Shown one piece after another: positions 2,707 through 39,131 of a stretch of 39,131 nucleotides of DNA. The notes beneath the pieces were generated by a model that was not told the origin of the DNA, made no database searches, and saw nothing but the letters and a program-made list of their open reading frames with translations. The position numbers were made by a program, and so were the translations under genes. Within the stretch, counting starts at the first letter, position 1. Every line of letters starts with the position of its first letter. This DNA is from Acrocarpospora phusangensis (GTDB lineage Bacteria > Actinomycetota > Actinomycetes > Streptosporangiales > Streptosporangiaceae): contig NZ_BOOA01000076.1 in assembly GCF_016862995.1 (NCBI RefSeq), positions 1-39,131 on the forward strand, read 5' to 3'.

Positions 2707-2860
2707 GACATAGGTGATCGATTAACGCCACGGGCGGTACGTCGTCGTGGCTACGGCGGCACGAAAAGCTCGCAGGCGGAGGCTGAGCCCCCGTTTTTGT
2801 CGGCTGCGGTCGCTACCGTTTCCTAGGTACGCGTTTTCCGACCGGAGGCGGCTGGACGGC

Positions 2861-18068: not shown

Positions 18069-20538
<2,470 letters not shown>

Positions 20539-20685
20539 GGGAAACGCCCGTCACCCCCATCGGAGATCAGCCCCAGCCAGCCCTGAAACCCCCCTTACCC
20601 TCCCTGGTCCGGCACTTCCCGGCATATCGGGGTTCGGGGTCGGGGGAACCGGCCGTTTTCACTGGTCAGGGCCTAGGGGACGGCC

Positions 20686-22359: not shown

Positions 22360-22385
22360 GACCGCGACGCCTACCCAGAAAACAA

Positions 22386-22415
22386 CAACCCGCACCACGG
22401 ACGTGGTGCGGGTTG
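22386..22415 (-). terminator. Intrinsic terminator of the cold-shock gene
   Basis: A perfect 13-bp stem (22386-22398 with 22403-22415) and a 4-nt loop are followed on the minus strand by a T-rich run (TTGTTTTC). This is a classical rho-independent terminator, placed 14 nt after the cold-shock stop, and it insulates the GH13 gene downstream. Confidence 0.85.
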
Positions 22416-22429
22416 CGGCTAGAACAGGC

Positions 22430-22633
22430 TTAGAGCGGCGTGACGTTCTCGGCCTGGGGGCCCTTCTGGCCCTGGACGGTCTGGAAGCTGACGCGCTGGT
22501 TCTCGTCGAGGCTGCGGTAACCACTCGACGTGATCGCCGAGTAGTGCACGAACACGTCAGGGGTACCGTCGTCCGGAGCGATAAACCCAAAGCCCTTTTC
22601 GGCGTTGAACCACTTGACCGTGCCTTCAGACAA
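22430..22633 (-). CDS. Cold-shock domain protein (CspA family), TTG start
   Basis: This 67-aa OB-fold RNA/DNA-binding protein has RNP1 KGFGFI and RNP2 VFVHYS. The family sequence starts at (M)[16 protein letters not shown], and here the first codon is TTG at 22633, preceded by an AAAAGGAGAAG ribosome-binding site 5-6 nt upstream; a longer frame from 22681 is unsupported. Cold-shock proteins act as RNA chaperones and keep mRNAs unstructured. The ~235 nt upstream contain no gene and probably hold the promoter and a long 5' leader, as is common for csp genes. A strong terminator follows. Confidence 0.93.
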
Positions 22634-22869
22634 CTGCTTCTCCTTTTCGGGAGCCTCACCGTGCCACCAGGTCGGGGACACGGGGCTGCTTAGCGGACCC
22701 TACCCTGCATCCGCGCAATACGCTGGAGAAGCAAGCACGCCCGCTGTCGGAACTTTCCGTCGGGAAGGTCCCGAGGCGCTTTTTTACAAACACCACTGCA
22801 ACACGAGCAGCCTACCCGCCCCGGGCCGGATGTCCAAACAGGGCCCCTCGCCGCAGCTCAGACCCCCTG

Positions 22870-23799
22870 TCAGCTCAGGGTTGGCGCTGCCATGTACCAC
22901 CTGGCCTCGCCGTCGCCCTTAGTCAAGGAGTCAAGTCTGCGCGGCAGTTCCTGTCGGGAGAAGGGGTCTCCGGTGGCGTTCCGGATATGGATGCCTACGG
23001 CATACATATCCCTAATTTCCATCAAAGTGCTGAAATCTGGCCATTCGCGTAGGTCGGATCCGTACGCGTGTGCGAATGCGTCCACCTCGCCCGTGGTCAG
23101 GCCGAACCGGCGCTGGCCGTGGTAGGTGTGCACCAGGTCCCACTCGCGGGGGCCGACCGCGACGCCGTCCCAGTCGCAGAGCACGGCGTGGCCGTCCCGG
23201 CAGCGGAGCAGGTTGTCGATCCAGGCGTCCCCGTGCAGCAGGACCGGCGGACCCGAGTCCAGGCTCTGCCAGCGCTCGGTGAGGGTGCAGATCCGCTCTC
23301 CCAGCCAGGCCCGCTGGTACGGCGTGAGCACCTCCGACCGGTGCTCGACCGCGTGCCGTACCTCCGCCAGGGGGTCGGTGAGGCGGCGCAGCTCGATCGG
23401 CGGCACGGGTTCACGGTGCAGGTTGCGCAGGACCCGGCCGAGCTCGGTGGTGGTGGGGCGGCCGTTGGAGCGTACGTAGCGCCAGAAGGTGACGGCGCGG
23501 CCGCCGTACACGATGGGCTGGCCGGGGATCTCGTCCACCGGGCGCACGGTCGGGAAGCCCCGGTCGGCGAGCCAGCGGGCGACGGCGAGCACCACCGGGA
23601 GGCGGGTGAGCGCGTCGGGGGCGGTCGCGATCCTGACCACCATCTCGCTTCTCAGCTTGAACACCGCGTTGCTGCGCAGGCGCATCAGCCTGGCCCCCTC
23701 GGCCTCGACGCCGATCTGGCCGCAGACCGCGCGCAGGACCGTGAAGGCCTCCTCGGCCAGGGGTTTCCCGGTGAAGGAATGCGCGATGGTGTGGTTCAT
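22870..23799 (-). CDS. Aminoglycoside phosphotransferase (APH)-fold kinase
   Basis: This 309-aa protein has the APH/choline-kinase fold. The catalytic loop is VLLHGDAWIDNLL (Brenner motif H-G-D-x4-N) and the metal-binding segment LCDWDGVAVGPREWDLVHTY. The N-lobe has RLRSNAVFKL and MVVRIATA, the latter holding the likely ATP-binding strand, although the usual Lys is replaced by Arg. It phosphorylates a small molecule of unknown identity; antibiotic inactivation should not be assumed. Its ATG overlaps the stop of the HTH-TPR regulator gene (ATGA), so the two are translationally coupled. This regulator-kinase pairing recurs in actinomycetes as far as I recall. Confidence 0.85.
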   Translation of the reverse strand: MNHTIAHSFTGKPLAEEAFTVLRAVCGQIGVEAEGARLMRLRSNAVFKLRSEMVVRIATAPDALTRLPVVLAVARWLADRGFPTVRPVDEIPGQPIVYGGRAVTFWRYVRSNGRPTTTELGRVLRNLHREPVPPIELRRLTDPLAEVRHAVEHRSEVLTPYQRAWLGERICTLTERWQSLDSGPPVLLHGDAWIDNLLRCRDGHAVLCDWDGVAVGPREWDLVHTYHGQRRFGLTTGEVDAFAHAYGSDLREWPDFSTLMEIRDMYAVGIHIRNATGDPFSRQELPRRLDSLTKGDGEARWYMAAPTLS

Positions 23800-25235
23800 A
23801 TGGCAAGCCGGAGGGAGGACTCCGACAGGACTTGGTTGAGGTGCCGGACCGACGGCAGCCGGGGGTCGGCGTCGGCCAGCAGCGCTCTGGCCCGGGTGAC
23901 GACGATCGAGGTGCGGTGCTCGGCCGGAACCTGGCCGAGCGCCTGGGCGGCCAGGCGGCAGGCCTCGTCGTGGTCGCCGTGCCGGGACAGGTGGCTGGCC
24001 TGGTCGAGCAGGATCAGGGCGGGGTCGATGGTCTGGAAGCCGCTGCCGAGCGACTCGAGGCCCTGCACCTGGGACTCGTCGCCCAGCTCCAGCAGGGTGC
24101 CGGTGCGGTAGAAGGTCATGCGCTTCTCGGTGAAGACGAAGGCGAGGTCGTCCTGGCTCATGCCGCGCATCCGGGCGAAGATCTGCTCGGCCTCGGCCAG
24201 CGCGATCCTGGCCGCCTTGCGGTCGCCCATCCGGGCCAGGGCCCGGGCCTCGGCGGCGGCGGCCAGCGCGGCCGGGGAGCTGGGGGCCGAACCGGCCAGC
24301 ATCCTGGCCTCCCTGGCCAGCCGTACGGTCTCGGTGAGGTCGCCGTAGTAGTAGGGCAGCATCGTCTGGTTGGCGCGGACCAGGGCGCGCAGGCGCAGGT
24401 CGCCGATGTCGTCGGAGGCGGTGCGGGCGGTGCCGTACCAGGCGTGGGCCTGGCGGGTGTCGCCGAGTTTCATCAGCGCGTCGGCGGTGAGCAGGGCCAG
24501 CATGGTGGTGGCGGTGAGCAGGCGGCGCTGCACGCTGGCCAGCTGCCGGGCGCCGGCGAGCTTGCGCACGTCGGCCAGTTCCAGCATGACCCGGCAGAGC
24601 ATGGGCATCGGCGGGGTGGTCATGTACTCCCGGCGGTAGCGCAGCACCTGCTCGTCCAGCCGGTCCAGCTGGTCCTCGGTGACGCTGCCGGTGGCGAGGG
24701 ACCGATCCACATCGTGCCGGGTGCCCTCCACCTCGGCGAAGAAGCGCCCGTTCGGGGTGCCCGCCAGCATCGCCTGGTGGAACAGGGCCCGCCGGTCGGT
24801 GTCGTCGTCGGCCAGTTCCTCGACGTGGACGCCGTCGTCCGGGGAGCCGTTGGCGACCACGACCACCTTCTGGCCGCCGCCGCCCGGGTCCTCGCAGTAG
24901 TCGGCGGCCAGCCCGAGCCGGACCGCGTTGGCCTTGTACAGCCGGGCCAGCAGGTCGATGGTCTGCGGCCGGGGCCTGGCCCGGTTGTTCTCCCAGGCGT
25001 TGAGCAGGTCGATGCTGGCGCGGGGAAGGCCGAGCGCCTGCTGCTCGCAGAGGAACTCCAGCTCCTCGATGGCCTGCCGGGCGGACCAGCCCCGCCCGAG
25101 CCGGTGCGCCTTCAGCATGCTGACCCCGCAGCAGCCGTGGATCGCCTGAACCGTCTGCCACAGGGTCCACTGCCGCGCGTCCGCCTGTTCACGCCAGCGG
25201 CGCGCGCATGCTGGGGAATGTTCGCCTCGGGCCAT
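23796..25235 (-). CDS. HTH (XRE-like) regulator with TPR domain
   Basis: This 479-aa protein has an N-terminal DNA-binding-like region (~residues 20-100: WQTVQAIHGCCGVSMLKAHR, then WSARQAIEELEFL, LLNAWENNRARPRPQTIDLL ARLY) that resembles the XRE-type HTH of large Streptomyces developmental or metabolic regulators. A long all-helical C-terminal half is rich in Ala and Leu with TPR-like helices (HAWYGTARTASDDIGDLRL, AEAEQIFARMRGMS). A ligand or peptide partner for the TPR part is not evident. I chose the ATG at 25235 because a purine-rich site lies upstream and the extra 59 residues of the longer frame look noncoding. It is divergent from the small gene at 25531. Confidence 0.72.
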   Translation of the reverse strand: MARGEHSPACARRWREQADARQWTLWQTVQAIHGCCGVSMLKAHRLGRGWSARQAIEELEFLCEQQALGLPRASIDLLNAWENNRARPRPQTIDLLARLYKANAVRLGLAADYCEDPGGGGQKVVVVANGSPDDGVHVEELADDDTDRRALFHQAMLAGTPNGRFFAEVEGTRHDVDRSLATGSVTEDQLDRLDEQVLRYRREYMTTPPMPMLCRVMLELADVRKLAGARQLASVQRRLLTATTMLALLTADALMKLGDTRQAHAWYGTARTASDDIGDLRLRALVRANQTMLPYYYGDLTETVRLAREARMLAGSAPSSPAALAAAAEARALARMGDRKAARIALAEAEQIFARMRGMSQDDLAFVFTEKRMTFYRTGTLLELGDESQVQGLESLGSGFQTIDPALILLDQASHLSRHGDHDEACRLAAQALGQVPAEHRTSIVVTRARALLADADPRLPSVRHLNQVLSESSLRLAI

Positions 25236-25397
25236 GGTGCCTGCCCTTCCACTGCTGGAGATGGGGCGTCGTTCTAGGGGTCGGGCCGTACCCCAGTCTG
25301 CCCGGGAACCACCCTGTTCGGCCATTACGGATATTTCCCACAGGTTAACCGGCACGCACCCAACCGCCACTGTCGTTATGCGTTCGTGGCCGGAGAA

Positions 25398-25414
25398 CCG
25401 TGGATGTTCCACGG
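25398..25414. promoter_or_regulatory. 17-nt inverted repeat in a divergent promoter region
   Basis: CCGTGGA-TGT-TCCACGG is a perfect 7-3-7 dyad in the 295-nt gap between the HTH-TPR regulator and the small protein gene at 25531. It is a plausible binding site for that regulator. The rest of the gap shows no gene. Confidence 0.5.
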
Positions 25415-25530
25415 AATACCGCCGACTTCCCTGGTTATTGCACGTATCCGTCGAATGGGACGGATTGCCGGTAGGTCATCCCAGGTTCACCCTTTCCGGT
25501 GAAAGGTCCCAACATCCCCGGGAGACCACC

Positions 25531-25821
25531 ATGGCCATGAAGGCAGATCGCAGCGAAGCGATGGACCACCTTGAGCGGCTGGCCGCCCAGTTGGAGGCGC
25601 ACTCGTTCCAGGTGCGCCTGACGGCGCCCGCCGGCCTCTACCCGCGACTGCGGGTGGTCAACCCGATGGCCCCGACGGTGGCCGAGGACGTGCTCGCGTC
25701 CAACGCCAACGACGGCGAGTGGTGGTACTGGCTCTCCTGGGCCGGCCGCATCGGCCACGCCTCGGACGTGGTCACCGCCGCGGAGCGCATCGCGAGTGTG
25801 CTCCACGTCATCCGCCGCTAG
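25531..25821 (+). CDS. Hypothetical small protein (WWYWLSWAG)
   Basis: A 96-aa soluble protein. It begins with an amphipathic helix (MDHLERLAAQLEAHSFQVRL), continues with LRVVNPMAP and an aromatic strand GEWWYWLSWAGRIG, and ends in a helix. The arrangement (helix, then short strands with a Trp-rich strand) is like many small actinobacterial proteins encoded beside regulators, but I recognise no named family. GGGAG 7-8 nt before the ATG supports the start. It is divergent from the HTH-TPR/APH operon and may be co-regulated through the inverted repeat at 25398. Confidence 0.65.
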   Translation: MAMKADRSEAMDHLERLAAQLEAHSFQVRLTAPAGLYPRLRVVNPMAPTVAEDVLASNANDGEWWYWLSWAGRIGHASDVVTAAERIASVLHVIRR

Positions 25822-25835
25822 CCCGACCCCCAGCC

Positions 25836-25910
25836 GGTACGGCTCGCGCCACGCGATCCCAAGCGACCCGCGTGCCCCCATTCCGCCCACACTGGGTCGC
25901 GAGCCGTACC
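25836..25910. terminator. 13-bp inverted repeat with long loop
   Basis: A perfect 13-bp inverted repeat (25836-25848 with 25898-25910) encloses 49 nt that can themselves form short stems. It starts 15 nt after the stop of the small protein gene, so a terminator is likely; an attenuator-like leader element for the downstream synthetase paralogue is less likely because the promoter found lies after it. Confidence 0.5.
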
Positions 25911-26066
25911 TCAGGGGTTCTTGTTAGCCGGACTGTTAGCGGAAGAACGGCGAGATGTCTACCATGGAAGCGGGACGCCGAGGGTGGTTCCGGCCTATTA
26001 ATTGCCGTTTGACGTGTCTCACAATCGGCCCCCGGTGATGTGCGGCCCCCGGCTCGTCGAATCCTA

Positions 26067-26096
26067 TCGACAGCAAGCGGAATGGTCGCTTACCCT
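26067..26096 (+). promoter_or_regulatory. Promoter of the CysRS paralogue (leaderless)
   Basis: TCGACA (26067-26072, five of six bases of the TTGACA consensus) and TACCCT (26091-26096) are 18 nt apart. The -10 box ends 7 nt before the GTG start, so the message should be leaderless. Confidence 0.6.
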
Positions 26097-26103
26097 CGGG
26101 TAG

Positions 26104-27468
26104 GTGGGTCTCCGCCTTTACGATACTTTCAGTCGCTCGGTTCGCGATTTCACCCCCCGAATTCCGGGAATTGTCTCGCTTTATCTGTGCGGTCCCACCG
26201 TGGTCGTCCCACCCCATGTCGGGCAGATCAGATCGCAGGTGAATTTCGATATCCTGCACCGCTGGCTGAGACACCTGAATTATCAGGTCCTGTTCTGCAG
26301 GAATGTCACCGACATCGAGGACAAGATCATCAGTCGGTCGCTCAGCGAGGGGGTGCACTGGTGGCGCATCACCGACCCGGTGTACCGCTCGTTCACGCGC
26401 ACGTACGAGGCCCTGGGCTGCCTTCCGCCCAGCGTGGAGCCCCTGGCGACCGGGCACATCCCGGAGATGATCGAGCTCGTGGAGCAGCTGCTCGGGTCCG
26501 GGAACGCGTACGAGGCGGATGGCGACGTGTATTTCTCGGTGGATTCCTTCCCGCCGTACGGCGCGCTCTCCGGGCAGCGCCCGGACCAAATGCGCGGCAC
26601 CGAGGAGAACAGTCACGGAAAACGCGACCCGCGTGATTTCGCATTGTGGAAGAGAGCCCGTCCCGGTGAACCGATCTGGACCGCGCCATGGGGCGAGGGC
26701 CGCCCCGGATGGCATCTCGAATGTTCCGCGATGGCCCGGAAGTACCTCGGCCGGGAATTCGACATCCACGGCGGCGGCGCCAATCTCATCTTCCCGCACC
26801 ACGAAAACGAGATCGCCCAGTCCCGGGCCGCCGGAGACGAATTCGCGCGATTCTGGATCCACAATGGGCCGGTCACCCACCGGGGCGAGAAGATTCGCAA
26901 GGTCGTGAAGAATCCAATGGCCGTGCACACCCTGCTCCGGCGGATTCGCCCGGTCGAGCTCCGTTATTACCTGGCGGCCGCGCACTACCGTTCTCCGATG
27001 GAGTTCTCGGTGGCCGCGGTGGAGGAGGCGGCGACCGCTTTCCGGCGGGTCGAGCGCTTCGTGCACCGGGTGGCCGAGCGCCCGGCCGACCGCCTTCCCG
27101 CCCAGTTCAGCGAGGCCATGGCCAACGACCTCAACGTGCCGCAGGCCCTCTCCCGGGTGCACGCGGCCGTCAACGAGGGAAACGCGGCACTCGATTCCGG
27201 CGACCCGAAACTCGCCGCCGAAAAATGCGGCGAAGTGCGCGCGATGCTGGAAATCCTGGGCCTTGATCCACTGGCCGAGAACTGGGCCAGAGAAACCCGG
27301 CTGCGCGAGGTCGCGGGGGCCGTGCTGCACGTGGTCAGAAATCTCGCCGAGACGAGCGCGGCCGAGGGCGAGTTGGACCGCGCACACGCGCTGCACCACC
27401 AGATCGACAGCGCCTTGATCGGCAACGTCGTGATCAACCGCCGGATGAATCATCGCTTGCCGGTCTAG
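26104..27468 (+). CDS. Cysteinyl-tRNA synthetase paralogue with degenerate signature motifs
   Basis: This 454-aa protein is homologous to CysRS from end to end ([14 protein letters not shown] at the N-terminus, [42 protein letters not shown]). The zinc site that recognises cysteine is intact: Cys29, Cys207, His232 and Glu236. The class I ATP-binding motifs are altered: HIGH is HVGQ (38-41) and KMSKS is KIRKV (263-267, in [10 protein letters not shown]). It may be a weakened or antibiotic-insensitive synthetase, or an enzyme using activated cysteine for something other than translation. It is not MshC, because it keeps the C-terminal helical region. GC bias is somewhat lower than its neighbours. 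The GTG start matches the family's N-terminus. Confidence 0.88.
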
Positions 27469-27520
27469 GAATGAGCGGATAATTCAACATCGGCAAGGGG
27501 TGGCCCCCGTACCAGCCGGC

Positions 27521-30500
27521 TCAGCGCAGGTCGTTGTCCTCGGCGAGCACCTCCTCGACCTGGCGTATCTCCTCATCCGTGAGCGGGCGCGGCGCGAAGG
27601 CCGGCGCGGGCCCGCCCAGCCGGTCGGCCTCCGCGACAGCCATGCGGATCAAGGCGTCGATCACCTCGCGGGCCGCCGCCTCCATGGCTTTTCGGTCCTT
27701 CCCCTTCCCGCGGACCTCTCCGGAGACGCGCTCCTCCCCCCACAGATGGATGCGGTAGGAGCGCCGCTTGCCCAGATCCGGGGTGTCGTAGATCCGGACC
27801 GCCGGCAGGACGATGCCATGGTCTCGGCGCAGCTCCTCCCGCCGGCGGGTCAGCTCGTCCAGGATCGTGCCCCCGTTGTCCGGATCGAGCACCTCGCTCA
27901 ACGGCGGCGAGACGGCCAGGTGCAACGGCTCGCTCTCCAACGTGGCCTGCCGTGCCCGCGCCCGCAGTTCCGCCGCGCCGGCTCCGTACGTCACGTCGGC
28001 GAGCCCGTCCAGCCCGTGGCCCTCGACGTCCCGCGCCCCCGACGCCTGAGCGAGCAGGATGACCGCCTCGTAGGTGCGCCTGCGCTGACCGTAATCCAGC
28101 AGCGGCGCGAGTTCGCGCAGCACCATCGCCGCGGACCTGTGGTCGGGAACCCGATACCGCAGCCGGGCCGCGAGCCGCATCGCGTGGGCCTTCTCCTCCT
28201 CCGAGATCCCGGGCAGGCCGCTGAACAACTCGTGGGCCGCGGCCTCGTCGCCCGCGCTCCCGTTCTCGGCGAAACCCGCCGCGGCCAGCTCCAGCTCACG
28301 GCGGGCCTGGCCAGGGGACTCCTCCCGCAGATGCATGCGGCCACGCCAGAGGTGCACGATGGCCAGTTCGCGCGGCGCGACCCGCTGGTACAGCTCCTCC
28401 AGCCGGTCCAGCTGCGGCGCCAGCGCGTCCGCCGGCGCCTCGGCGAAGTCCATGACCTGAGCCAGCACCCGGCGGGCCCGGGTCTCCAGCAGTTCGTGAT
28501 CGGACGACACGAGCAGTGCCAGCGCCCGGCGCGCCCCGGCGCTCGCCGCATCGTGGTCGTCCAGCGCGAGGCGCGTCTCGGCCTCGGTGAGGAGCCGTGC
28601 CGCCCGTTCGTGCGCCGGAACCGCCTCGGCCGCCTCCAAGGCGTCGAGGTCGTCGAAGAGCCTGGCCGCCTCGGCCTGCTTCCCGGCGACCAGGAGGTGC
28701 TGCGCCAGCCGGGCCAGCGCCGACCGGATCAGCGTGGGCCAGCCGATCCGTCCCGCCAGCGCCCGCGCCTCTTCCAGGTGGGCGATCGCCCGGAGGATGT
28801 GCTCGCTCTCGGTCTGCACCCCGGCCGCGTTGTGGCGGGCGGCGGCGACGTCACCGAGCTGGCAGAGCGCGTCGAACTCGCCGCGCCCCCAGCCGACCTC
28901 CCGCGCCAGCGTCAGCGCCGCGCGCGCTTCCCGCTCCGCCGCGTCGAACGCGCCGTCGCCCAGGTACGCGCCGGCCAGGCGGACCCGGATGGCCGAAAGC
29001 GGCAACTCCTCGCCCGGCAGGACGTAACGATCGACCAGTTCGCCCAGCTTCCGCTGCGCGGCCTCGAATCGGCCCTCGGCCATGTCGATGAACGTGACCT
29101 GGTCGAGTTCGACGACGGTCTGCGCGAGCTCTCCGCCCTGCACCGACCGGAACAGCCGCAGCGACTGCTCGTACAGGTCGGCCGCCAGGCGTAGTTGGTG
29201 CGCACCGCCGTACTGGGCCCAGCCGCCCGCGATCAGCCGCAGGCAGTCCGCCTGGAGGAAGGTGTCCCCGGCGGCCCTGGCCAGGCCGAGCGCCTCGGTC
29301 AGCAGCGCGAACGTCTTCCGCAGGTCGTAGAACTGGCTCCAGAACCCGACCGTGGACAGGACTCGCGCGCGGTCGCGCGTGGAGACGCCGTCGGCTCCCG
29401 CGAGGGCCGCCTCGAACGACTGGCGCGCGGCCTGCGCGTCGCCGTCGTCGGCCTGCGCGTTGCCCAGGAGGGCGAACAGCAGCGGATGCGGGACGACGTC
29501 CAGGGCCTGGCGGCAGATCTCCTGCGCCTCGGCATGCCGGAACCGGCGGGCGGCCACCGCCGCCCGGGTCGCCGCCGCGCGCACCACGAGCCGGTGGCTG
29601 CGCCCCGCCGTGGCCAGCCGCTGCACTTCGGCCAGCGCGGGCAGATCGACCAGATCCGGGTCGTTGACCTCGTCGAACGCGCCCAGGTGCGCGGCCAGCG
29701 CGGCGGCGCACCGCGCGTGGGCCGTGACCGGGTCGTCGTCGGTGAGCACCGGTTCGAAGACGGCGGGGACCCGGTAGCCTCCGGGCCGCTCGGCGTACTC
29801 CAGCAGATGCCAGCCCGCCAGGCGCCTGGCGCGTTCCACCGCTTCCCGCCGCGCCAGGTCCGGCACCGCGGGGACGGCGATCCGCGAGGCCGGGCCCGCG
29901 AGCCGCGCCAGGATCTCGGCCGGGACCGGGATCCGGTACGGCGCGACCGCGCGCAGCAGCGCCGCGTCCTTCGGGTCGCGCCGCCCGATCAGCTCGTCGA
30001 CGGCCATCTTGTCGTAGAACTCTTCGCGCCGCCGCTGGAAGCGCCGGCGCAGCAGTTCCTCGCCCGTCTCCGGGCTGTCGCGGGCGATGTCGAACAGGAA
30101 GGTGAGCAGCCGGGGGTTGTCGCGCGCCATCAACCGGGCCAGTTCCACGGCCCGCGGGGTGACCTGCCCCTGATTCGCGAGCCGGTCGATCCGCGCCTGC
30201 TGGAAGTGCTCGGGCAGCACGTCCAGGGCCACGTCGTCGAGGAGTTCGATGCCCGGCGACTTCGGCAGGTACCGGCTGGTGATCACGATCCGGTGCGGCC
30301 CGCGGACCGTGGCCAGCGCGGAGACGAGCGCGAACAACGCCTGGACGGCCTCCGGTGCTGGCACCGCCTCGGGACCGCCCGTGCCGATGTTCCGCTGCTC
30401 GAACTCGTCCAGCACGATGATCACCGGGCGGAACATGCGTCGCAGCGCACGCTCCAGCAGGGCCTTCAGGTCGCTTCCCGGCGGCGCGGAGCCGAGCACG

Positions 30501-31912
30501 CTGCCGAGCTCCGGGATCGCGCCCAGTTCCTGGAGCAGGACCTCCCGCGTCAGCGGCACGTTGATCGAGACGTAGGTGACCGGGTTGCCGCGCCCCTCCT
30601 GGGTCGCGGTGACGCGCTCCAGCACGTTGGCCACCAGCGTCGTCTTGCCCACTCCACCGACCCCGTGCACGACCGCGCCGGGGCGGAGGAATTCGCGCAG
30701 CGGGTCGAGCACGCGCTCGAGCCGCTGGATCTCACGCCTGCGGCCGAAGAAGTCCGCCAGCGACACCCGGGCCAGCCCCGACGGCCCGATCTCGCGATGC
30801 TGACGGCCGATCCAGATCTGGTCGAGCGGCATCTGCGCCAGCGCGACCGTCAGCGGGCGCGGCATGTCCGTGCCCTGGACGTGCATGCGGAGCATGTGCC
30901 AGTGTTCGCGGCCCGCCTTGATCAGCTCCTGGTAGCTGCGGGCCAGCGCGATGGCCGGGCTGCGCCCCAGCATGAGCTGCTTGTAGAACGCGGCCGTCGC
31001 CTCGCTCGCGACGCGGTCGTTGACCGGGCGGCCCCAGCCGACCACGATCGGGGCCGAGATGGTCACCAGCTCCTCGGCCAGGGACGGAGCGGCCCCGAGA
31101 TCGCCTCCCTCGGCCGTCTGGCAGCCCGACAGGAACACCAGCCCGGGACCGCTCTGCCACAGCACCTCGTGCAGGTCCTCGGCCGAGGCCCGGTACGTCA
31201 GGCCGTCACGGTCCTCAGTCAGGAAGGACCCGCGCCCGTCGCCGCGCAGCGCGTGCCCGGTCAGGTGGATCACGTCGAAGTGACCGCGGTCGTAGAAGCC
31301 CAGCCGGCGGCCCAGTTCGCTCAGGCTGCCCGTCGGCTCGTACTCCAGGTAGAACGGGGCGCCGCCCTCGGCCGCCGCGTCCCGGATCATCGCCTCTTCC
31401 ATCTCGTAGTTCAGGACGCCGGGGCCGTCGATCGGCTCACAGGCCATGAACAGCAGCCGGAGGGGATGCCGGGCCTCGTCGCGCGTGCGCGCGATCACGT
31501 CCACCGACCGGATCGGGATGACCGGGTTCGGCCGGGCGATGAGGAAACCCCGGCCGTCGTGGAGCAGCTCCCACGGCAGATAGCCGAGACCGGCCGACAC
31601 GTCGAGCAGGATGACCACCAGGTCGTTGGGCCGGCGCTTGAGGTAGCCCGTCAGGTAGAGGTGGCCGGTGTCGAGCAGGTCGTACAGGGTACGGCCGAGC
31701 CCGCGCAGCCGGTTCTCGCGTTCCACGTCTCCTTCGCCCGGGTCGTCCAGGTAGTAGCTCGTACCGGCCTGCCGGAGCGCGTTCTGGAGGTCGTCGTAGG
31801 CGAGCCGTTCGCTGAACGACTCCTGGCTGTCGCCATGGCTGTAGGTCAGCAGGTAGCCCAGTTCCGGGCGCTGTCCCGCGTTCTTCAGCGCGATCTTCAA
31901 CGTCCACGGCAT
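27521..31912 (-). CDS. CHAT protease-STAND NTPase-TPR conflict-system protein
   Basis: This 1463-aa protein has a CHAT (caspase-like) peptidase domain at ~95-345 with catalytic His220 (IHLTGHALRG) and Cys264 (FLSGCQTAEGG). Residues ~388-700 form an NB-ARC/STAND ATPase: entry segment ADFFGRRREIQ, Walker A GVGGVGKTT (417-425), Walker B PVIIVLDEFEQ (496-506) and VITSRYLPKSP. About 600 residues of TPR-like helices follow. The last ~100 residues contain VPAVRIYDTPDLGKRRSYRI, which recalls the FlhA/FHIPEP signature. This logic (sensor repeats, ATP switch, caspase-like effector) is that of bacterial immunity or programmed-death proteins. It is translated 7 nt after a small EACC1-like protein, with which it should work. 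What it senses or cleaves is unknown. Confidence 0.88.
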   Translation of the reverse strand: MPWTLKIALKNAGQRPELGYLLTYSHGDSQESFSERLAYDDLQNALRQAGTSYYLDDPGEGDVERENRLRGLGRTLYDLLDTGHLYLTGYLKRRPNDLVVILLDVSAGLGYLPWELLHDGRGFLIARPNPVIPIRSVDVIARTRDEARHPLRLLFMACEPIDGPGVLNYEMEEAMIRDAAAEGGAPFYLEYEPTGSLSELGRRLGFYDRGHFDVIHLTGHALRGDGRGSFLTEDRDGLTYRASAEDLHEVLWQSGPGLVFLSGCQTAEGGDLGAAPSLAEELVTISAPIVVGWGRPVNDRVASEATAAFYKQLMLGRSPAIALARSYQELIKAGREHWHMLRMHVQGTDMPRPLTVALAQMPLDQIWIGRQHREIGPSGLARVSLADFFGRRREIQRLERVLDPLREFLRPGAVVHGVGGVGKTTLVANVLERVTATQEGRGNPVTYVSINVPLTREVLLQELGAIPELGSVLGSAPPGSDLKALLERALRRMFRPVIIVLDEFEQRNIGTGGPEAVPAPEAVQALFALVSALATVRGPHRIVITSRYLPKSPGIELLDDVALDVLPEHFQQARIDRLANQGQVTPRAVELARLMARDNPRLLTFLFDIARDSPETGEELLRRRFQRRREEFYDKMAVDELIGRRDPKDAALLRAVAPYRIPVPAEILARLAGPASRIAVPAVPDLARREAVERARRLAGWHLLEYAERPGGYRVPAVFEPVLTDDDPVTAHARCAAALAAHLGAFDEVNDPDLVDLPALAEVQRLATAGRSHRLVVRAAATRAAVAARRFRHAEAQEICRQALDVVPHPLLFALLGNAQADDGDAQAARQSFEAALAGADGVSTRDRARVLSTVGFWSQFYDLRKTFALLTEALGLARAAGDTFLQADCLRLIAGGWAQYGGAHQLRLAADLYEQSLRLFRSVQGGELAQTVVELDQVTFIDMAEGRFEAAQRKLGELVDRYVLPGEELPLSAIRVRLAGAYLGDGAFDAAEREARAALTLAREVGWGRGEFDALCQLGDVAAARHNAAGVQTESEHILRAIAHLEEARALAGRIGWPTLIRSALARLAQHLLVAGKQAEAARLFDDLDALEAAEAVPAHERAARLLTEAETRLALDDHDAASAGARRALALLVSSDHELLETRARRVLAQVMDFAEAPADALAPQLDRLEELYQRVAPRELAIVHLWRGRMHLREESPGQARRELELAAAGFAENGSAGDEAAAHELFSGLPGISEEEKAHAMRLAARLRYRVPDHRSAAMVLRELAPLLDYGQRRRTYEAVILLAQASGARDVEGHGLDGLADVTYGAGAAELRARARQATLESEPLHLAVSPPLSEVLDPDNGGTILDELTRRREELRRDHGIVLPAVRIYDTPDLGKRRSYRIHLWGEERVSGEVRGKGKDRKAMEAAAREVIDALIRMAVAEADRLGGPAPAFAPRPLTDEEIRQVEEVLAEDNDLR

Positions 31913-31919
31913 GGGGGCG

Positions 31920-32303
31920 TCAGTCGGCCGTGCCAGGGCCGGGCGGAGACCCGGGATCGGCCTCCGCGTCCGCCTCCCGTTCCAGTTCGAGGAGATGGTC
32001 GAACTCGTCCGGAGACAGGTCCTCCAGCGGGTGACGGGACCCCGTACGGTCGAACACGACGATCACGCGGGGCGGCGGCGGACCCGGCTCGTCACGTTTG
32101 CGGAGACGTTCCGCCCACTTGAACACGGTGTCGGCGATGGCCACGACGGATCCGGCGAGGGTCACGATCGCGGTGACGACCTCGACGACGTTCTTGTCGC
32201 CGGGAGGCGGCTGGCTGAGCCGGGATTGGGAACCGATCTCCGCGGCCAGGTCGGCGGCGTCCCGGGCGGCCGTACTTCCGCTGACCACGATCCGGACGGG
32301 CAT
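31920..32303 (-). CDS. Small single-TM protein resembling EACC1
   Basis: A 127-aa protein with a short N-terminal beta-alpha unit (MPVRIVVSGSTAARDAADLA), one hydrophobic helix (~39-60, VVEVVTAIVTLAGSVVAIAD), a basic stop-transfer (KWAERLRKR), a Pro-rich turn, a strand (RVIVVFDRTGSRHPL) and an acidic tail. This order fits, by eye, the small effector-associated constant component (EACC1-like) proteins described next to STAND/CHAT conflict systems; a profile search would be needed to be certain. The ATG at 32303 has AAGGAGATCGC directly upstream, which rules out the longer frame to 32381. The CHAT-STAND gene follows after 7 nt. Confidence 0.65.
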   Translation of the reverse strand: MPVRIVVSGSTAARDAADLAAEIGSQSRLSQPPPGDKNVVEVVTAIVTLAGSVVAIADTVFKWAERLRKRDEPGPPPPRVIVVFDRTGSRHPLEDLSPDEFDHLLELEREADAEADPGSPPGPGTAD

Positions 32304-32334
32304 GCGATCTCCTTGCTCCCCCGACCAAGTGAAA

Positions 32335-32356
32335 CGGCTAATGTCATTCTTAGCCG
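32335..32356. promoter_or_regulatory. 7-8-7 inverted repeat between the conflict module and the nucleoside hydrolase
   Basis: CGGCTAA (32335-32341) and TTAGCCG (32350-32356) are exact reverse complements with 8 nt between. The site lies 32 nt upstream of the EACC1-like start and 48 nt upstream of the divergent nucleoside hydrolase start. On the minus strand TCGACA (32368-32363) and GACATT, 16 nt apart, give a possible promoter overlapping it. Confidence 0.5.
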
Positions 32357-32404
32357 ATAGATGTCGAGATGATGGCGGCAATGCCCGACGCTAAGCTCCG
32401 AAGC

Positions 32405-33346
32405 GTGGCCCCGACAAAGATCGTCATAGACTGCGACCCCGGTATCGACGACGCGCTGGCGATCGCGCTGGCGCATGGCAGTCCCGCGTTGGAGATCGTG
32501 GGTATCACCACGGTCGGCGGGAACGTGTCCCTGGAGCGCACCACCGACAACGCGCTGCGGCTGCGGGAGTTCCTCGGCTTCCCCGAGGTGCCGGTGACGC
32601 CGGGCGCCGCCGGTGCGATGATGCGGAGCGCGATCGAGGCCGCGCACGTGCACGGGACCGGAGGGCTGGGCGGGGCGATCCTGCCCGCGCCCACGCTGCC
32701 GGTGGCGCCGGGGCACGCCGCCGACTACATCATCGAGACGCTGCGCGCCGCTCCCGGTGAGATCACGCTGGTCGCCATCGGGCCGCTGACCAACATCGCC
32801 CTGGCCGTGCTCAAGGAGCCGCGCGTGGTCGAGTGGGCGCGGGAGTTCGCCATCCTGGGCGGGACGTACACGCGGGGGAACCGCACGCCGGCGGCGGAGT
32901 TCAACATCGCGGCCGACCCGGAGGCGGCGGCGATCGTGTTCCAGGCCGGCTGGACGGTCACCCAGATCGGGCTGGACGTGTCCACCACCGCGCAGGCCAC
33001 CGGGCCGATCGTGGAGCGCATGCGCGAGATCGGCCGCCTCGGCACCGATCTGCTGATCCCCTGCGCGACCTTCTACGGCATGGTGACCGCCGACGACGGG
33101 CCGGCCATCCACGACGCCTGCGCGCTGGCCTACCTGGCCGACCCGAGCCTGATCGTGTTCGAGCCCGCGTGGGTGGAGGTGGAGACCGCCGGCCGGTTCA
33201 CCTCGGGCATGACGGTCATCGACTTCAATTTGGGCGGACGCGTGCCGAACGCCCGGGTGGGCACCTCCATCGACGTGGGCCGGTTCTGGGAGCTGGCCCT
33301 GGCGGCGTACGAGCGTGTGAACAAAGGACTGTCCAGCGGCGTCTAA
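32405..33346 (+). CDS. Nucleoside hydrolase (IUNH family)
   Basis: This 313-aa enzyme cleaves the N-glycosidic bond of ribonucleosides for base salvage. The Ca2+-binding signature is IDCDPGIDDALAIALA near the N-terminus. TVGGN, PLTNIALAV, EFNIAADPEAAAIVF and DGPAIHDACALAYL (with the active-site His and the fourth Ca ligand Asp) complete the family pattern. I chose GTG 32405 because the signature then starts near residue 8, as in other members, and TAAGCT (32392-32397) lies 7 nt upstream as a leaderless -10; the ATGs at 32369-32381 would add 8-12 residues. It is divergent from the conflict module, and the next gene follows after 6 nt. Confidence 0.9.
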   Translation: MAPTKIVIDCDPGIDDALAIALAHGSPALEIVGITTVGGNVSLERTTDNALRLREFLGFPEVPVTPGAAGAMMRSAIEAAHVHGTGGLGGAILPAPTLPVAPGHAADYIIETLRAAPGEITLVAIGPLTNIALAVLKEPRVVEWAREFAILGGTYTRGNRTPAAEFNIAADPEAAAIVFQAGWTVTQIGLDVSTTAQATGPIVERMREIGRLGTDLLIPCATFYGMVTADDGPAIHDACALAYLADPSLIVFEPAWVEVETAGRFTSGMTVIDFNLGGRVPNARVGTSIDVGRFWELALAAYERVNKGLSSGV

Positions 33347-33352
33347 CGGGTT

Positions 33353-34420
33353 ATGTTCGCCCACGTTCTGCTGACCCTCAGCCTGCTGGCCCCGCAGCAG
33401 GCCACCGCCGCCCCCGCCTGGACCATCCAGAGGACCTCTGGCATCTCCAACGCCAGCGCGCTCCTGGACGTCTCCGCCTCCGGCGCCTCGGACGCCTGGG
33501 CGGTCGGGTACGGCTGCAGCGCCGAGGACAACGAGGGCTGCCCCGCCATCCAGCGCTGGAACGGCAGGACCTGGCGGAAGGTGACGGACGCCAGGACGAA
33601 CGCCTACCACGCGGTCGGGGTCAGCGCCGCCTCGCCGAACAACGTGTGGGTGGTGGGCAACGGCACGACCGCGTGGGCCGGGCACTGGAACGGGCGGGCG
33701 TGGACGTCCTACCAGCCGTTCGGCGCGGCCGAGCACAACAGGATCAGCGATGTGGCCGTCTCCGGGCGGCCCTGGTTCGCGGGTTCCACCGCCGACGGCC
33801 GGGGCGTCGTGCTCAGCTGGAGCAAGGCGCGCGGCTTCCGGACCGTGTTCGCCAACCCCGGCTCGCTCAACGCGATCACCGCCAGGAGCGCCACCGGGGA
33901 CGTCTGGGCGGTGGGCGCCAACGGCTCCCAGCCGATGATCGTGCACGGCTCGAACGGGCGCTTCACCGAGCACCGGGCGCCCCTCATCCCCGGCGGCGTG
34001 CTCACCCGCGTCTGGCAGGCGGCCAAGAACGACGTCTGGGCGGTCGGCCACACGGGCGGCACCTTCGCCACGTCGAAGCCGCTCGTGCTGCGCTACGACG
34101 GCCGGTCCTGGCGGCAGGTGTCCGTGCCCGTGGCCAAGGGCAGGCTGACGGGAGTGACCAGCGACGGCGCGGGCGTGGTGTGGGCGAGCGGGGTGGACTT
34201 CGCGCACGGCCGCCAGGTCCTGCTCATCCGGCTGGGCGCGGGCCGGCCACAGGTGTCCTGGAGCCAGGTGTTGACGATCCCCAACCAGCGCGACTACGAC
34301 CCCGACACGGTGACGAAGGTCTCGATCAGCCGCGTCCCCGGCACCCGGCACGGGCTCTGGGCGGCGGTCGCGGCGGGCGGCGGGGACTTCGAGACTCACT
34401 TCCTGATGCGCCGGAAGTGA
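33353..34420 (+). CDS. Secreted beta-propeller protein with DVWAVG-type repeats
   Basis: This 355-aa protein has a short signal peptide (MFAHVLLTLSLLAPQQATAA, cleavage near residue 20). The mature part repeats a blade motif around a D/N-x-W-x-VG core: SDAWAVGYG, NNVWVVGNG, GDVWAVGANG, NDVWAVGHTG, each followed by WNGRTW- or YDGRSW-like strands. This predicts an extracellular propeller related to Kelch or galactose-oxidase central domains, without visible catalytic residues. It begins 6 nt after the nucleoside hydrolase stop, so both are probably co-transcribed. Role unknown; surface binding is a guess. Confidence 0.8.
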   Translation: MFAHVLLTLSLLAPQQATAAPAWTIQRTSGISNASALLDVSASGASDAWAVGYGCSAEDNEGCPAIQRWNGRTWRKVTDARTNAYHAVGVSAASPNNVWVVGNGTTAWAGHWNGRAWTSYQPFGAAEHNRISDVAVSGRPWFAGSTADGRGVVLSWSKARGFRTVFANPGSLNAITARSATGDVWAVGANGSQPMIVHGSNGRFTEHRAPLIPGGVLTRVWQAAKNDVWAVGHTGGTFATSKPLVLRYDGRSWRQVSVPVAKGRLTGVTSDGAGVVWASGVDFAHGRQVLLIRLGAGRPQVSWSQVLTIPNQRDYDPDTVTKVSISRVPGTRHGLWAAVAAGGGDFETHFLMRRK

Positions 34421-34525
34421 GGCGCGCACAGCCGTTTGCGCAGCCAGTGCGGATGGGCGCAATCTCCGTGCCGGAACGACCAATTCCCGAAACAATCCCA
34501 GACTTTCCGCGAAACATGCGTTTCT

Positions 34526-34531
34526 TAGTCT
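34526..34531 (+). promoter_or_regulatory. -10 box of the ATP-grasp operon (leaderless)
   Basis: TAGTCT ends 6 nt before the ATG at 34538, and no ribosome-binding site is present. A weak -35 (TTTCCG at 34504-34509) is 16 nt upstream. The 34421-34537 gap holds nothing else that I can see. Confidence 0.4.
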
Positions 34532-34537
34532 CCGGTC

Positions 34538-36082
34538 ATGGCGGACATATTCGACTCATACGCCCTGGCCGATGCATGGGACGAGATGTTCGAGCGGCCG
34601 GGCGTGCCCCGGGCGCCCTACCAGGGACTGTTCGCGGCCCTGCAGCCGCTCGGCGCCGAGGAACTACGGTTCCGGGCCGACCAATTGGCGCGCGTGTTCA
34701 CCGACCGCGGCGTCACCTTCGACTACGCCGGTGAGGAACGCCCGTTCCCGCTCGACCTGATCCCGCGCGTCATCGACGCCGCCGAGTGGGATCTCATCGC
34801 CCGCGCCGTACGCCAGCGGGTGCGCACCCTGGAGGCCTTCCTGGCCGACGTGTACGGCGCCCGCCAGGTCTTCCACGACGGGGTGGTGCCGTGGCGGCTG
34901 CTCCAGTCCTCCCCGCACTTCCACCGCACCGCCGACGGGATCCGGCCGGCCAACGGCGTACGGGTGCACATCGCCGGGATCGACATCATCCGGGATGAGG
35001 CGGGCGACTTCCGGGTGCTGGAGGACAACGTCCGTACCCCCTCCGGGGTGAGTTACGTGCTGGAGAACCGGCTGGCCATGATGCGGACGCTGCCCGCCCT
35101 GTTCGCGGGGCCGGGACGGGACGGCGTCGGAGCCGAGCAGCGGGTGCGGCCGGTGGACGAGTACCCGCCGCGCCTGCTGGCGGCCCTCCGCAAGGCCGCC
35201 CCGGCCAGCGTGACCGACCCGACCGTGGTGGTGCTCACCCCGGGCGTCTACAACGCGGCCTACTTCGAGCACGCGCTGCTGGCCCGCCTGATGGGCGTCG
35301 AGCTGGTCGAGGGCCGCGACCTGATCTGCGAGAACAACCGCGTCTACATGATCACCACGCACGGCAAGCGCCCGGTGCACGTGATCTACCGGCGGGTGGA
35401 CGACGACTACCTCGACCCGCTGCACTTCCGGGCCGACTCCACGCTCGGCTGCCCGGGAGTGCTCAACGCGGCCAGGGCCGGCACGGTCACGATCGCCAAC
35501 GCGGTCGGCAACGGCGTCGCCGACGACAAGCTGCTCTACACGTACGTGCCCGACCTGATGAAGTACTACCTGGGCGAGGAGCCGCTGATCGGCAACGTGG
35601 AGTCGCACCGGCTGGCCGACGCCGACACGCTCGAATGGGCGCTCGACCACCTGGACACGCTCGTGCTGAAGCCCGTGGACGGCGCGGGCGGCAAGGGCAT
35701 CGTGATCGGGCCGCGCGCCGACGAGCGGACCCTGGCCACGCTGGCCGAGGCCGTACGGGCCGATCCGCGGGGGTGGATCGCGCAGCGGCCGGTGGCGCTG
35801 TCCACCTCGCCGGCGCTCATCGGGGACCTGCCCCGGCCCCGCCACATCGACCTGCGGCCGTTCGCGGTCAACGACGGCGACGACGTCTGGCTGCTGCCCG
35901 GGGGGCTCACCCGGGTGGCGCTCCCGGAAGGAGAACTGGTGGTCAACTCCAGCCAGGGCGGCGGCTCCAAGGACACCTGGGTGCTGTCCGAGCCCGGCCC
36001 GCGCGCCGCCGCGCCGGAACCCGCGCCCGCCCAGGTGCACTGGGAACCCACCAGGAACGCGGCCTGGGACGGCCAGCAGTGA
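34538..36082 (+). CDS. Circularly permuted ATP-grasp protein (DUF404/DUF407 type)
   Basis: This 514-aa protein is the lead gene of a conserved actinobacterial triad. Family landmarks are YQGLFAALQPLGAEEL, ITFDY-like VTFDYAGEERPFPLDL, the ADVYGARQV segment, AGIDIIRDEAGDFRVLEDN, RTPSGVSYVLENR, and the permuted nucleotide-binding part LVLKPVDGAGGKGIVIG with SSQGGGSKDTWVL near the end. ATP-grasp enzymes activate a carboxylate as acyl-phosphate and ligate an amine, so a peptide- or amide-forming role has been proposed for the triad; the substrate is unknown. The stop overlaps the next start (GTGA). Confidence 0.92.
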   Translation: MADIFDSYALADAWDEMFERPGVPRAPYQGLFAALQPLGAEELRFRADQLARVFTDRGVTFDYAGEERPFPLDLIPRVIDAAEWDLIARAVRQRVRTLEAFLADVYGARQVFHDGVVPWRLLQSSPHFHRTADGIRPANGVRVHIAGIDIIRDEAGDFRVLEDNVRTPSGVSYVLENRLAMMRTLPALFAGPGRDGVGAEQRVRPVDEYPPRLLAALRKAAPASVTDPTVVVLTPGVYNAAYFEHALLARLMGVELVEGRDLICENNRVYMITTHGKRPVHVIYRRVDDDYLDPLHFRADSTLGCPGVLNAARAGTVTIANAVGNGVADDKLLYTYVPDLMKYYLGEEPLIGNVESHRLADADTLEWALDHLDTLVLKPVDGAGGKGIVIGPRADERTLATLAEAVRADPRGWIAQRPVALSTSPALIGDLPRPRHIDLRPFAVNDGDDVWLLPGGLTRVALPEGELVVNSSQGGGSKDTWVLSEPGPRAAAPEPAPAQVHWEPTRNAAWDGQQ

Positions 36083-37005
36083 CCCGCGAGCTGCTCAGCC
36101 GGATCGCCGAGACCCTCTACTGGATCGGCAGGTACGTCGAGCGGTCCGACGACATCGCCCGCCTGCTGGACGTCTCCCTGCACCGGGCCCTGGTCGGCCA
36201 GGAGGACTGGGCCACCGTGTTCGCCACCCTCGGCCACGTGGGCACCGAGTCGCCCACCACCGAGACCATGGTGCAGCGCCTGGCGTACGACTCCGACACC
36301 CCGGGGTCGATCGCCGGATGCGTACGGGCGGCCAGGGAGAACGCCCGGGGCGTGCGGGAGATCGTCTCCAGCGAGGTGTGGGAGTGCCTCAACGTCACCT
36401 GGAACCAGCTCCCGCTCCGCCAGGTCGGCGCGGAGCGGCTGGGCCCGCACGGCTACCTCCGGTACGTGCGGGAGCGGGCCGCCCTCTTCTTCGGCCTGGC
36501 CGACGCCACCATGAGCCGCGACGACGGCTGGCGCTTCATCGTGCTGGGCCGCAGCCTGGAGCGGGTGGACATGGTCGCCCGGCTGCTGACCGTGCACCAC
36601 GAGCCCAGCCACTCCTGGAACTGGCGGCTGCTGCTGGAGGCCTGCGGCGCGGACGAGTCGTTCACCAGGACCCACCGCGGCGACGCCCGCCGGGTGCTGG
36701 AGTTCCTGCTGCTGGACCGGCTGTTCCCGCGCTCGGTCATGCACGCGCTGGCCACCGCCGAGCAGTGCCTGGCCGAGCTGACCCCCGACCACGACCGGGC
36801 CGGCATGTCGGACGCGGCCCGCGCCGCCATCGGCCGGGTCCGGATGAGCCTGGAGTACGCCGACGTGGCCGACCTGGACGACCAGCTGCCGGAGCTGCTC
36901 ACGGCCCTGCAGGCGGTCTGCGTGATCGCCTCCGAGGCCATCACCGACCGGTTCTTCCAGCACGTGGCGTGGGGAGGGTCGGCGTGGCAGACGGCTGGCG
37001 TGTGA
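36079..37005 (+). CDS. Alpha-E domain protein (DUF403)
   Basis: This 308-aa all-alpha protein opens with LLSRIAETLYWIGRYVERSD DIARLLDV, the diagnostic alpha-E signature. Later segments such as ARENARGVREIVSSEVWECLN and LGRSLERVDMVARLL match the family. It has no known catalytic residues. It is almost always encoded between the ATP-grasp and transglutaminase-like genes and is thought to form a complex with them. The GTG at 36079 overlaps the upstream stop by 4 nt, so translation is coupled. Confidence 0.92.
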   Translation: MTRELLSRIAETLYWIGRYVERSDDIARLLDVSLHRALVGQEDWATVFATLGHVGTESPTTETMVQRLAYDSDTPGSIAGCVRAARENARGVREIVSSEVWECLNVTWNQLPLRQVGAERLGPHGYLRYVRERAALFFGLADATMSRDDGWRFIVLGRSLERVDMVARLLTVHHEPSHSWNWRLLLEACGADESFTRTHRGDARRVLEFLLLDRLFPRSVMHALATAEQCLAELTPDHDRAGMSDAARAAIGRVRMSLEYADVADLDDQLPELLTALQAVCVIASEAITDRFFQHVAWGGSAWQTAGV

Positions 37006-37817
37006 GGATCAGGCACCTGACCCTGCTGGAGTACGAGGGCGACGCGCAGTCGTCGTACAACGAGGTCAGGATGACGCCGCTGGACGACCGCGGGCAGACC
37101 ACGCTGGACCAGCGGCTGGTGGTGCGGCCGGCCACGCCGGTCTGGACGTACCGGGACTACTGGGGCACCCAGGTGAGCGTCTTCGACGTGCCGAAGGCGC
37201 ACCGGACGCTGTCCATCGAGGCCATCAGCCGGGTGGAGACGTCGGGGCCGCGCCCGCTGGGCAAGCCGCTCGGCTGGGCGGCGCTGCGGGAGGTGGACGG
37301 GCCGATCGCCGAGTACCTGCGGCCGACCGAGCGGACCACGATCGCCCCCGAGGTGGCGACCGCCCAGGTGCACGGACGGGACCCGCACGAGGCGGCCGAG
37401 GCGATCGCCTGGGCGGTGCACGAGCGGGTGTCCTATGTGCCGGGTTCCACGGGCGTGCTGACCAGCGCGCAGGAGGCCTGGGACCTGCGGGAGGGCGTCT
37501 GCCAGGACATGGCCCACCTCACCGTGGCCCTGCTCCGCGCGGCCGGTCTGCCGGCCCGGTACGTCTCCGGCTACCTCCATCCGCACCGGAACGCGGCCGT
37601 CGGTGAGGCGGTGGCGGGACAGAGCCACGCCTGGGTGGAGTACTGGGCGGGGGACTGGGTCGCGCTCGACCCAACAAATCGGTCAAAAGTGGGCGAATCA
37701 CACGTGGTGGTAGCGCGCGGGAGAGATTACGCTGACGTACCCCCTTTGAAAGGTATTTACCAAGGACCACCTGCGGGAAGACAAGTAGTGAAGGTCGAAG
37801 TGACCAGGCTGGCGTGA
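36984..37817 (+). CDS. Transglutaminase-like cysteine peptidase
   Basis: This 277-aa protein has an N-terminal beta-sandwich (VRIRHLTLLEYEGDAQSSYN) and a transglutaminase-like core with the triad Cys173 (EGVCQDMAH), His215 (QSHAWVEY) and Asp229 (ALDPTN). It could cleave or transfer peptide bonds made by the ATP-grasp partner. Start choice: GTG 36984 has GGGAGGG 6-7 nt upstream and overlaps the alpha-E gene by 22 nt; GTG 37002, which overlaps the stop by 4 nt and gives the more typical family N-terminus VRIRH, has no such site. Translation is coupled either way. A small ORF follows after 52 nt. Confidence 0.9.
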   Translation: MADGWRVRIRHLTLLEYEGDAQSSYNEVRMTPLDDRGQTTLDQRLVVRPATPVWTYRDYWGTQVSVFDVPKAHRTLSIEAISRVETSGPRPLGKPLGWAALREVDGPIAEYLRPTERTTIAPEVATAQVHGRDPHEAAEAIAWAVHERVSYVPGSTGVLTSAQEAWDLREGVCQDMAHLTVALLRAAGLPARYVSGYLHPHRNAAVGEAVAGQSHAWVEYWAGDWVALDPTNRSKVGESHVVVARGRDYADVPPLKGIYQGPPAGRQVVKVEVTRLA

Positions 37818-37855
37818 TCTTGGCGTCAAAGTGGGAAGGCTGAGACCAAACGATG

Positions 37856-37869
37856 AGAGGAGCGCCTCT
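37856..37869 (+). promoter_or_regulatory. Hairpin sequestering the small-ORF ribosome-binding site
   Basis: AGAGG (37856-37860) pairs with CCTCT (37865-37869) around an AGCG loop, and the GTG start begins at the very next base. The only Shine-Dalgarno candidate is the paired AGAGG, so folding could limit initiation. Confidence 0.4.
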
Positions 37870-37965
37870 GTGAAAAGGGTCCAGATCGTTCAGCGGCCTC
37901 GGCCTCCACGCCGTCCCGTCCCCATCGACCTGCGCACCCCGTCCGGACGGATACTTCCGTTCTAA
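37870..37965 (+). CDS. 31-aa Pro/Arg-rich small ORF
   Basis: GTG start, 31 codons, TAA stop. The peptide is very basic and proline-rich (VQIVQRPRPPRRPVPIDLRT) and ends GRILPF. A GAGAGGAG site lies ~9 nt upstream. It sits 52 nt after the transglutaminase-like gene on the same strand, close enough to belong to that operon. I do not recognise it. The short length makes chance possible, but position, start signal and intact C-terminal PIDLRTPSGRILPF argue for a real peptide. Confidence 0.4.
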   Translation: MKRVQIVQRPRPPRRPVPIDLRTPSGRILPF

Positions 37966-37993
37966 GTGCCTTAGCCTCTGTTCGAAACCCGTT

Positions 37994-39097: not shown

Positions 39098-39131
39098 CGA
39101 CCAAGCCTGACACAGTTTCATGGCGGTGCTT

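Follow-up and report, generated by a model that had tools for sequence, protein, structure and literature searches.

Our analysis of a 39,131-nt stretch of the Acrocarpospora phusangensis genome (contig NZ_BOOA01000076.1; the whole of this stretch is called the window here) points to a two-gene locus whose products would form an EACC1-caspase type of immune or death receptor linked to the membrane, a reading that we hold with a probability of roughly 55%. The pair consists of a gene for a small membrane protein followed by a gene for a 1463-aa protein that joins a CHAT protease, a STAND NTPase, a TPR-like region and, at its C-terminus, a domain like part of FlhA. Judged from sequence, the pair is most likely a variant form of the two-gene EACC1-caspase conflict systems described in the literature, to which the finding would add a branch of CHAT-STAND proteins paired with small membrane proteins. 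It also shows a piece of the flagellar export gate away from any export apparatus and joined to a caspase-like receptor, and opens direct tests of the role of the partner and of the ligand of an export-gate docking fold on an immune-type receptor.

Both genes lie on the minus strand within positions 27521-32303 and are separated by 7 nt (31913-31919), with the small gene 5' and the CHAT-STAND gene 3'; an earlier sequence-only reading of the locus had given these coordinates, frames and gap correctly. The small gene (31920-32303, minus strand, 127 aa) is preceded by AAGGAG, a ribosome-binding-like motif (32309-32314, minus strand) 5 nt upstream of the ATG at 32303. The 7-nt gap before the CHAT-STAND gene (27521-31912, minus strand) shows no obvious ribosome site, which suggests coupling. 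On the opposite strand, a cysteinyl-tRNA-synthetase-type gene (26104-27468, plus strand; Pfam tRNA-synt_1e, E 1.9e-105) stops 52 bp short of the CHAT gene's 3' end; the genome has four matches to this family, so the gene may be an extra copy.

Pfam models for CHAT, AAA_16 and FHIPEP all matched the large protein above their cut-offs. CHAT, a member of the caspase superfamily, covers residues 72-336 (PF12770, E 3.4e-18; 30905-31699, minus strand), AAA_16 marks the core of the STAND NTPase at residues 388-531 (PF13191, E 4.2e-13; 30320-30751, minus strand), and FHIPEP matches residues 1319-1401. The CHAT dyad is intact, with His220 (codon 31253-31255) and Cys264 (codon 31121-31123) where the sequence-only reading had placed them, and the STAND NTPase, which it had also called intact, has a Walker A motif at residues 417-425 (30638-30664) and a Walker B motif at residues 500-505 (30398-30415), all on the minus strand. 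H220, C264, K423 and D502 were invariant in an alignment of three sequences, namely the window protein and its cyanobacterial and alphaproteobacterial relatives. The long TPR sensor proposed earlier did not stand as such: when the region was scanned alone, TPR_12 (E 0.0027) and TPR_8 (E 0.098) both remained under cut-off, so residues 680-1310 or thereabouts (27983-29875, minus strand, limits approximate) hold degenerate TPR-like repeats at best. By BLAST, this region weakly resembled the TPRs of the Acaryochloris relative P0004 (E 0.001, single comparison). A P-loop, a Walker B motif and a helical repeat region, its repeats degenerate, are together in keeping with a STAND NTPase. PADLOC returned weak matches to the large protein, the best of them (PDC-S27, E 0.0027) within the NTPase part.

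The C-terminal domain (27710-27958, minus strand) had been overlooked in the sequence-only reading. At the level of sequence profiles, residues 1319-1401 share homology with a portion of D1, a subdomain of the flagellar export-gate protein FlhA. FHIPEP (PF00771) matched with E 1.8e-7 on the whole protein and E 7.5e-9 on the last 149 residues, and a PDB search recovered FlhA (3mix, E 1.7e-4), with FlhA accounting for 12 of the 13 chains among matches listed at E up to 1. An independent profile of 29 FlhA proteins, drawn from 29 of the 30 FlhA loci of the window's class (the one left out had no clean motif), gave the domain 34.6 bits, a score reached by none of 2000 shuffles (maximum 10.3), and an FlhA-D1 profile run over unselected ORFs ranked the window gene first with 31.4 bits, against 8.7 for the runner-up. 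The homology is limited to the first part of D1, about 80 residues at FHIPEP positions 322-403 of 657; it ends ahead of D2, and the protein differs from a full-length FlhA in having neither the membrane part nor D2, D3 or D4. A complete D1 from which D2 had been excised was considered but not supported, as adding the post-D2 helix brought no gain (33.7 vs 34.6 bits) and 62 of 74 control joins outscored the real one.

FHIPEP matches occurred in 51 of 394 genomes of the class, over 82 profile positions in the window's genome and 469 or more in each of the other 50; the window's genome had no other FHIPEP match and no FlhA. A CHAT-STAND-FlhA fusion was found in none of the 393 other class genomes, where no more than 2 candidates were scored in each, and in none of the 340 other genomes of the window's family. 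When the C-terminal part was used as query against the 341 family genomes, 17 matched at E up to 0.01: the window's own, nine with true FlhA genes (996 bits or more with an FlhA profile) and seven with weak matches, which did not exceed 3.2 bits with the D1 profile and were taken as chance. Within the scope of our literature search, which leaves out most subscription journals and bioRxiv, no report of a CHAT-STAND-FlhA protein was found by title and start of abstract, nor any work on FHIPEP in actinobacteria or on FlhA together with a STAND NTPase, nor an experimental study of the EACC1 / CHAT-STAND family.

The small protein carries one hydrophobic helix, in agreement with its earlier description as a single-helix protein. 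This predicted membrane helix (residues 39-57, VVEVVTAIVTLAGSVVAIA; 32133-32189, minus strand) has a Kyte-Doolittle 19-residue mean of 2.28 and contains the residues AGS. A low-confidence structural model, predicted from the single sequence (pLDDT 64), consists of a helix, a second helix, two short strands and a further helix, one helix spanning residues 37-70. The protein shows the EACC1 trait of a single TM helix with small residues near its middle and short alpha+beta flanks, the flanks being read from the low-confidence model. For its EACC1-like identity, proposed from sequence alone, the result is suggestive: EACC1 (PF19953) matched with E 3.7e-4, but at 20.9 bits the match stays under the Pfam cut-off of 23.6. 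EACC1 matches above cut-off occur at three places in the window's genome (L054, L055 and L056), the one at L054 preceding a Peptidase_C14-nSTAND1-WD40 gene and the one at L056 a WD40 protein gene. No homology was found between the small protein and these three canonical EACC1 proteins, the score of their profile on it being reached by 43 of 1000 shuffles. PADLOC gave zero matches for the small protein. Elsewhere, the 'TIEIAG' ORF (L067, 3173-3781) was taken as spurious, as it sits opposite a longer ORF.

The gene pair recurs outside the phylum. A tblastn search of 72,556 plasmids with the large protein as query gave two records. On an Acaryochloris marina plasmid (NZ_AP026078.1), a CHAT-STAND-TPR gene follows 9 nt after a 107-aa gene, in the same order as in the window (proteins WP_261892250 / WP_261892248). 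The large proteins of the two loci match at E 2e-74 and the small ones (P0003 in Acaryochloris) at E 9e-8, both in single comparisons, and the score of the small proteins was reached by none of 2000 layout-preserving shuffles in either direction. In a search of 1213 ORFs with the window's small protein, the Acaryochloris one was the best non-self match (E 4.8e-4). The reverse search with P0003 ranked the window protein second (E 0.0098) behind an Embleya ORF (E 3.8e-5), which was taken as unrelated despite its higher score, as it sits among tail-like genes. The sequence-only reading had let the two-component interpretation fall if the small gene proved not to be conserved next to CHAT-STAND homologues, and its recurrence beside such a gene in another phylum, in one close relative pair, speaks for the pairing.

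The second record, an Azospirillum plasmid (NZ_CP012918.1), shows another layout, in which the CHAT-STAND-TPR gene comes first and its 3' end shares 4 nt with a 125-aa one-helix gene. The same 4-nt overlap was found in G020, a genome of the window's family, on a contig that ends inside the CHAT gene. These two loci resemble each other in both their small proteins (E 8e-9; 0 of 2000 shuffles) and their large proteins (E 3e-61). Homology between the window's small protein and the Azospirillum-type partner was not detectable (340 of 2000 shuffles reached the score; 22 of 2000 for the G020 partner). Likewise, a profile of the other three CHAT-paired small proteins failed to recover the window protein, 105 of 1000 shuffles matching its score; on the Acaryochloris protein, 278 of 1000 shuffles matched a profile of the other three as well. 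Besides the window's own genome, one of 395 genomes of the phylum had a match with an E value no higher than 1e-40. No related loci were found in genome contigs with P0002 and P0001 as queries, nor among the viral contigs and phages searched, and plasmids gave no match to P0002 or to the C-terminal domain. In the protein and profile searches of whole genomes, the best 2, 3 or 10 candidates per genome were scored.

To gauge how regularly such proteins have a membrane partner, we compared 14 CHAT-STAND loci, comprising the two plasmid matches and the listed matches to the CHAT-STAND profile: the window, Acaryochloris, Azospirillum, G020, G289, the own-genome locus C58, G1013, three loci in G1002, and G015, G109, G165 and G1035. 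A small one-TM partner was present in four (window, Acaryochloris, Azospirillum and G020). The two-component interpretation is partly supported, in that the domains pass their profile searches and the small gene recurs on the Acaryochloris plasmid, but such a partner is not general across these loci. A TM-TIR neighbour was seen in another four, namely C58 (divergent), two G1002 genes, which flank one common TM-TIR gene, and G015 (divergent, in two pieces). No partner was recognised in the other six (G289, G1013, the third G1002 gene, G109, G165 and G1035), of which G109, G165 and G1035 have poor gene calling, so that their blanks are not counted as true absences. The small TM-TIR proteins adjoin TIR-CHAT-STAND genes in three genomes (L064 8214-8777, L131 7915-8466, and L132 3085-3656 in two pieces), which suggests a second membrane-partner design, possibly joined by TIR-TIR contact. 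On the G1002 contig (L131, 1-16000), the three CHAT-STAND matches fall inside about 10 kb.

In the published EACC1 system, a one-TM 5' gene is coupled to a 3' gene whose product has a caspase-superfamily peptidase at its N-terminus and, C-terminally, domains of up to 50 kinds, STAND included; the table there gives a total of 671, 650 of them multicellular (Kaur et al. 2020, PMC7159879). EACC1 was suggested there to sense at the membrane and then trigger self-cleavage. The window pair shares with this system the 5' one-TM gene and the 3' N-terminal caspase-superfamily peptidase with STAND and variable C-terminal domains. It differs in that its small protein matches EACC1 below the Pfam cut-off, in that its peptidase is of the CHAT type, a word absent from the main text of PMC7159879, and in its FlhA-D1-like C-terminus, as FHIPEP and FlhA are likewise absent from that main text. 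We therefore filed the pair as a variant rather than a member, because the EACC1 match fails the cut-off though the plan fits.

The Acaryochloris pair has a related small protein followed by a related CHAT-STAND protein, but its TPR arrays are clear and it has no FlhA-D1 match. The Azospirillum and G020 type also combines CHAT-STAND-TPR with a small one-TM partner, but there the partner lies downstream, overlaps and has no detected sequence similarity to the window's. The TPR-CHAT protein of Craspase acts together with the RNA-guided gRAMP and, to our knowledge, has no STAND part. It shares with the window protein a CHAT protease and a TPR-type region in an immune setting (Csx29; PMC9729208). 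No close direct repeats of at least 22 bases, as in a CRISPR-like array, were found in positions 20000-39131 of the window, and Pfam identified no Cas family among 10 window proteins scanned.

By analogy with STAND receptors, on which the following steps are modelled, the small protein would tether the receptor to the membrane or report membrane state, and the TPR-like region together with the D1-like C-terminus would bind the trigger and keep the STAND module off. Trigger and ATP would then lead to STAND assembly, bringing CHAT domains together and switching on the His220/Cys264 protease, which may cut the partner, itself or a host protein and so cause growth stop or cell death. Killing, trigger and substrate are what we infer for such a receptor, and an anti-phage role is conjecture, as are the sensing of phage or damage and the housekeeping substrate put forward in the sequence-only reading. 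At the sensor end, the D1-like domain most likely offers a surface on which a protein docks, since D1 contributes to docking in FlhA: the linker there touches the D1 and D3 subdomains of the adjacent subunit, and chaperones bind in a dimple between D1 and D2 (PMC8166844). It could instead be an effector or an oligomerisation part. A more specific scenario, in which a caspase-like STAND receptor recruited the export-gate D1 as a sensor tip that detects an export-chaperone-like or phage protein and sets off membrane-linked proteolysis, is quite unlikely as it stands; if true, a bacterium with no export gate would be using an export-gate docking surface for sensing. We know of no earlier case in which an export-gate module has been put to use for immune sensing.

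Other explanations assign the C-terminal domain a different task. As an effector, it would be freed by CHAT self-cleavage and would jam an assembly by protein docking, which we consider unlikely: STAND-TPR chains usually carry a sensor, not an effector, at the C-terminus, and no toxic activity of a docking fold of about 80 aa is known to us. The domain is nevertheless the variable part of the protein, as the FlhA-D1 profile finds no match in P0004, P0008 or P0015 and only 0.3 bits in P0014, and Kaur et al. (2020, PMC7159879) treat variable C-terminal domains as effectors freed by auto-proteolysis. A dsRBD-like nucleic-acid sensor, with the receptor firing on structured RNA, is highly improbable. 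The single-sequence model of the domain has the order alpha-beta-beta-beta-alpha, several dsRBD proteins are among the weak Foldseek matches, as are ribosome hibernation factors, and GKGKDRKAMEAAA is, by eye, what we take to resemble the third dsRBD motif; however, the model has low confidence (pLDDT 55), Foldseek found nothing at E 0.001 or better, and a Pfam dsrm match is absent. A profile of 21 RNase III dsRBDs gave 6.9 bits on the 90-residue core, reached by 0 of 2000 shuffles, but 5.5 bits on a 179-residue stretch, reached by 2 of 2000, and the whole protein ranked 8th of 1099 reported ORFs at 2.2 bits, under spurious ORFs. Given these mixed weak signals and the far stronger FlhA signal, the dsRBD identity was not supported.

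The pair might also act outside defence, as a STAND-family regulator of development or stress that signals through a non-lethal protease. This is possible, if on the unlikely side. Actinomycetes have many STAND-TPR regulators, those window neighbours that Pfam could match belong to metabolism or regulation, and no sign of a defence island was seen when PADLOC was run on 10 further window proteins, nine of which had no match and the tenth a GlgB-type model on an alpha-amylase. The distribution of the system is sparse, however, its architecture is variable, and both plasmid relatives (Acaryochloris and Azospirillum) lie near recombinase or transposition genes, which suggests conflict rather than housekeeping. 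Finally, the small gene could be an unrelated neighbour of a protease that acts alone, as the CHAT-STAND genes of G289 and G1013, which have no recognised small partner, would allow. We regard this as very improbable, since the same pair in the same order occurs in the window and in Acaryochloris with similarity in both genes, and since the 7-nt gap has no obvious ribosome site. The reading of the pair as a membrane-linked receptor of the EACC1-caspase kind is the one that we retain.

The window also encodes a second STAND-type protein (2747-6202, plus strand, 1151 aa) with AAA_16 and TPR matches. Protein matches pointed to a probable actinomycete host: a window oxidoreductase shares 70% identity with one from Nonomuraea, and nearly all its other named matches came from actinomycetes, whereas a second protein had mixed matches of lower identity, with Tsukamurella best at 60%. 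A glycosyltransferase (37994-39121, minus strand) matches Pfam GT4-conflict (E 4.5e-14), and ordinary glycosyltransferase models score higher on it. The 9.1-Mb genome has 13 CHAT matches over cut-off, of which two belong to a single frame, and by its CHAT and EACC1 counts holds a large stock of caspase-like proteins.
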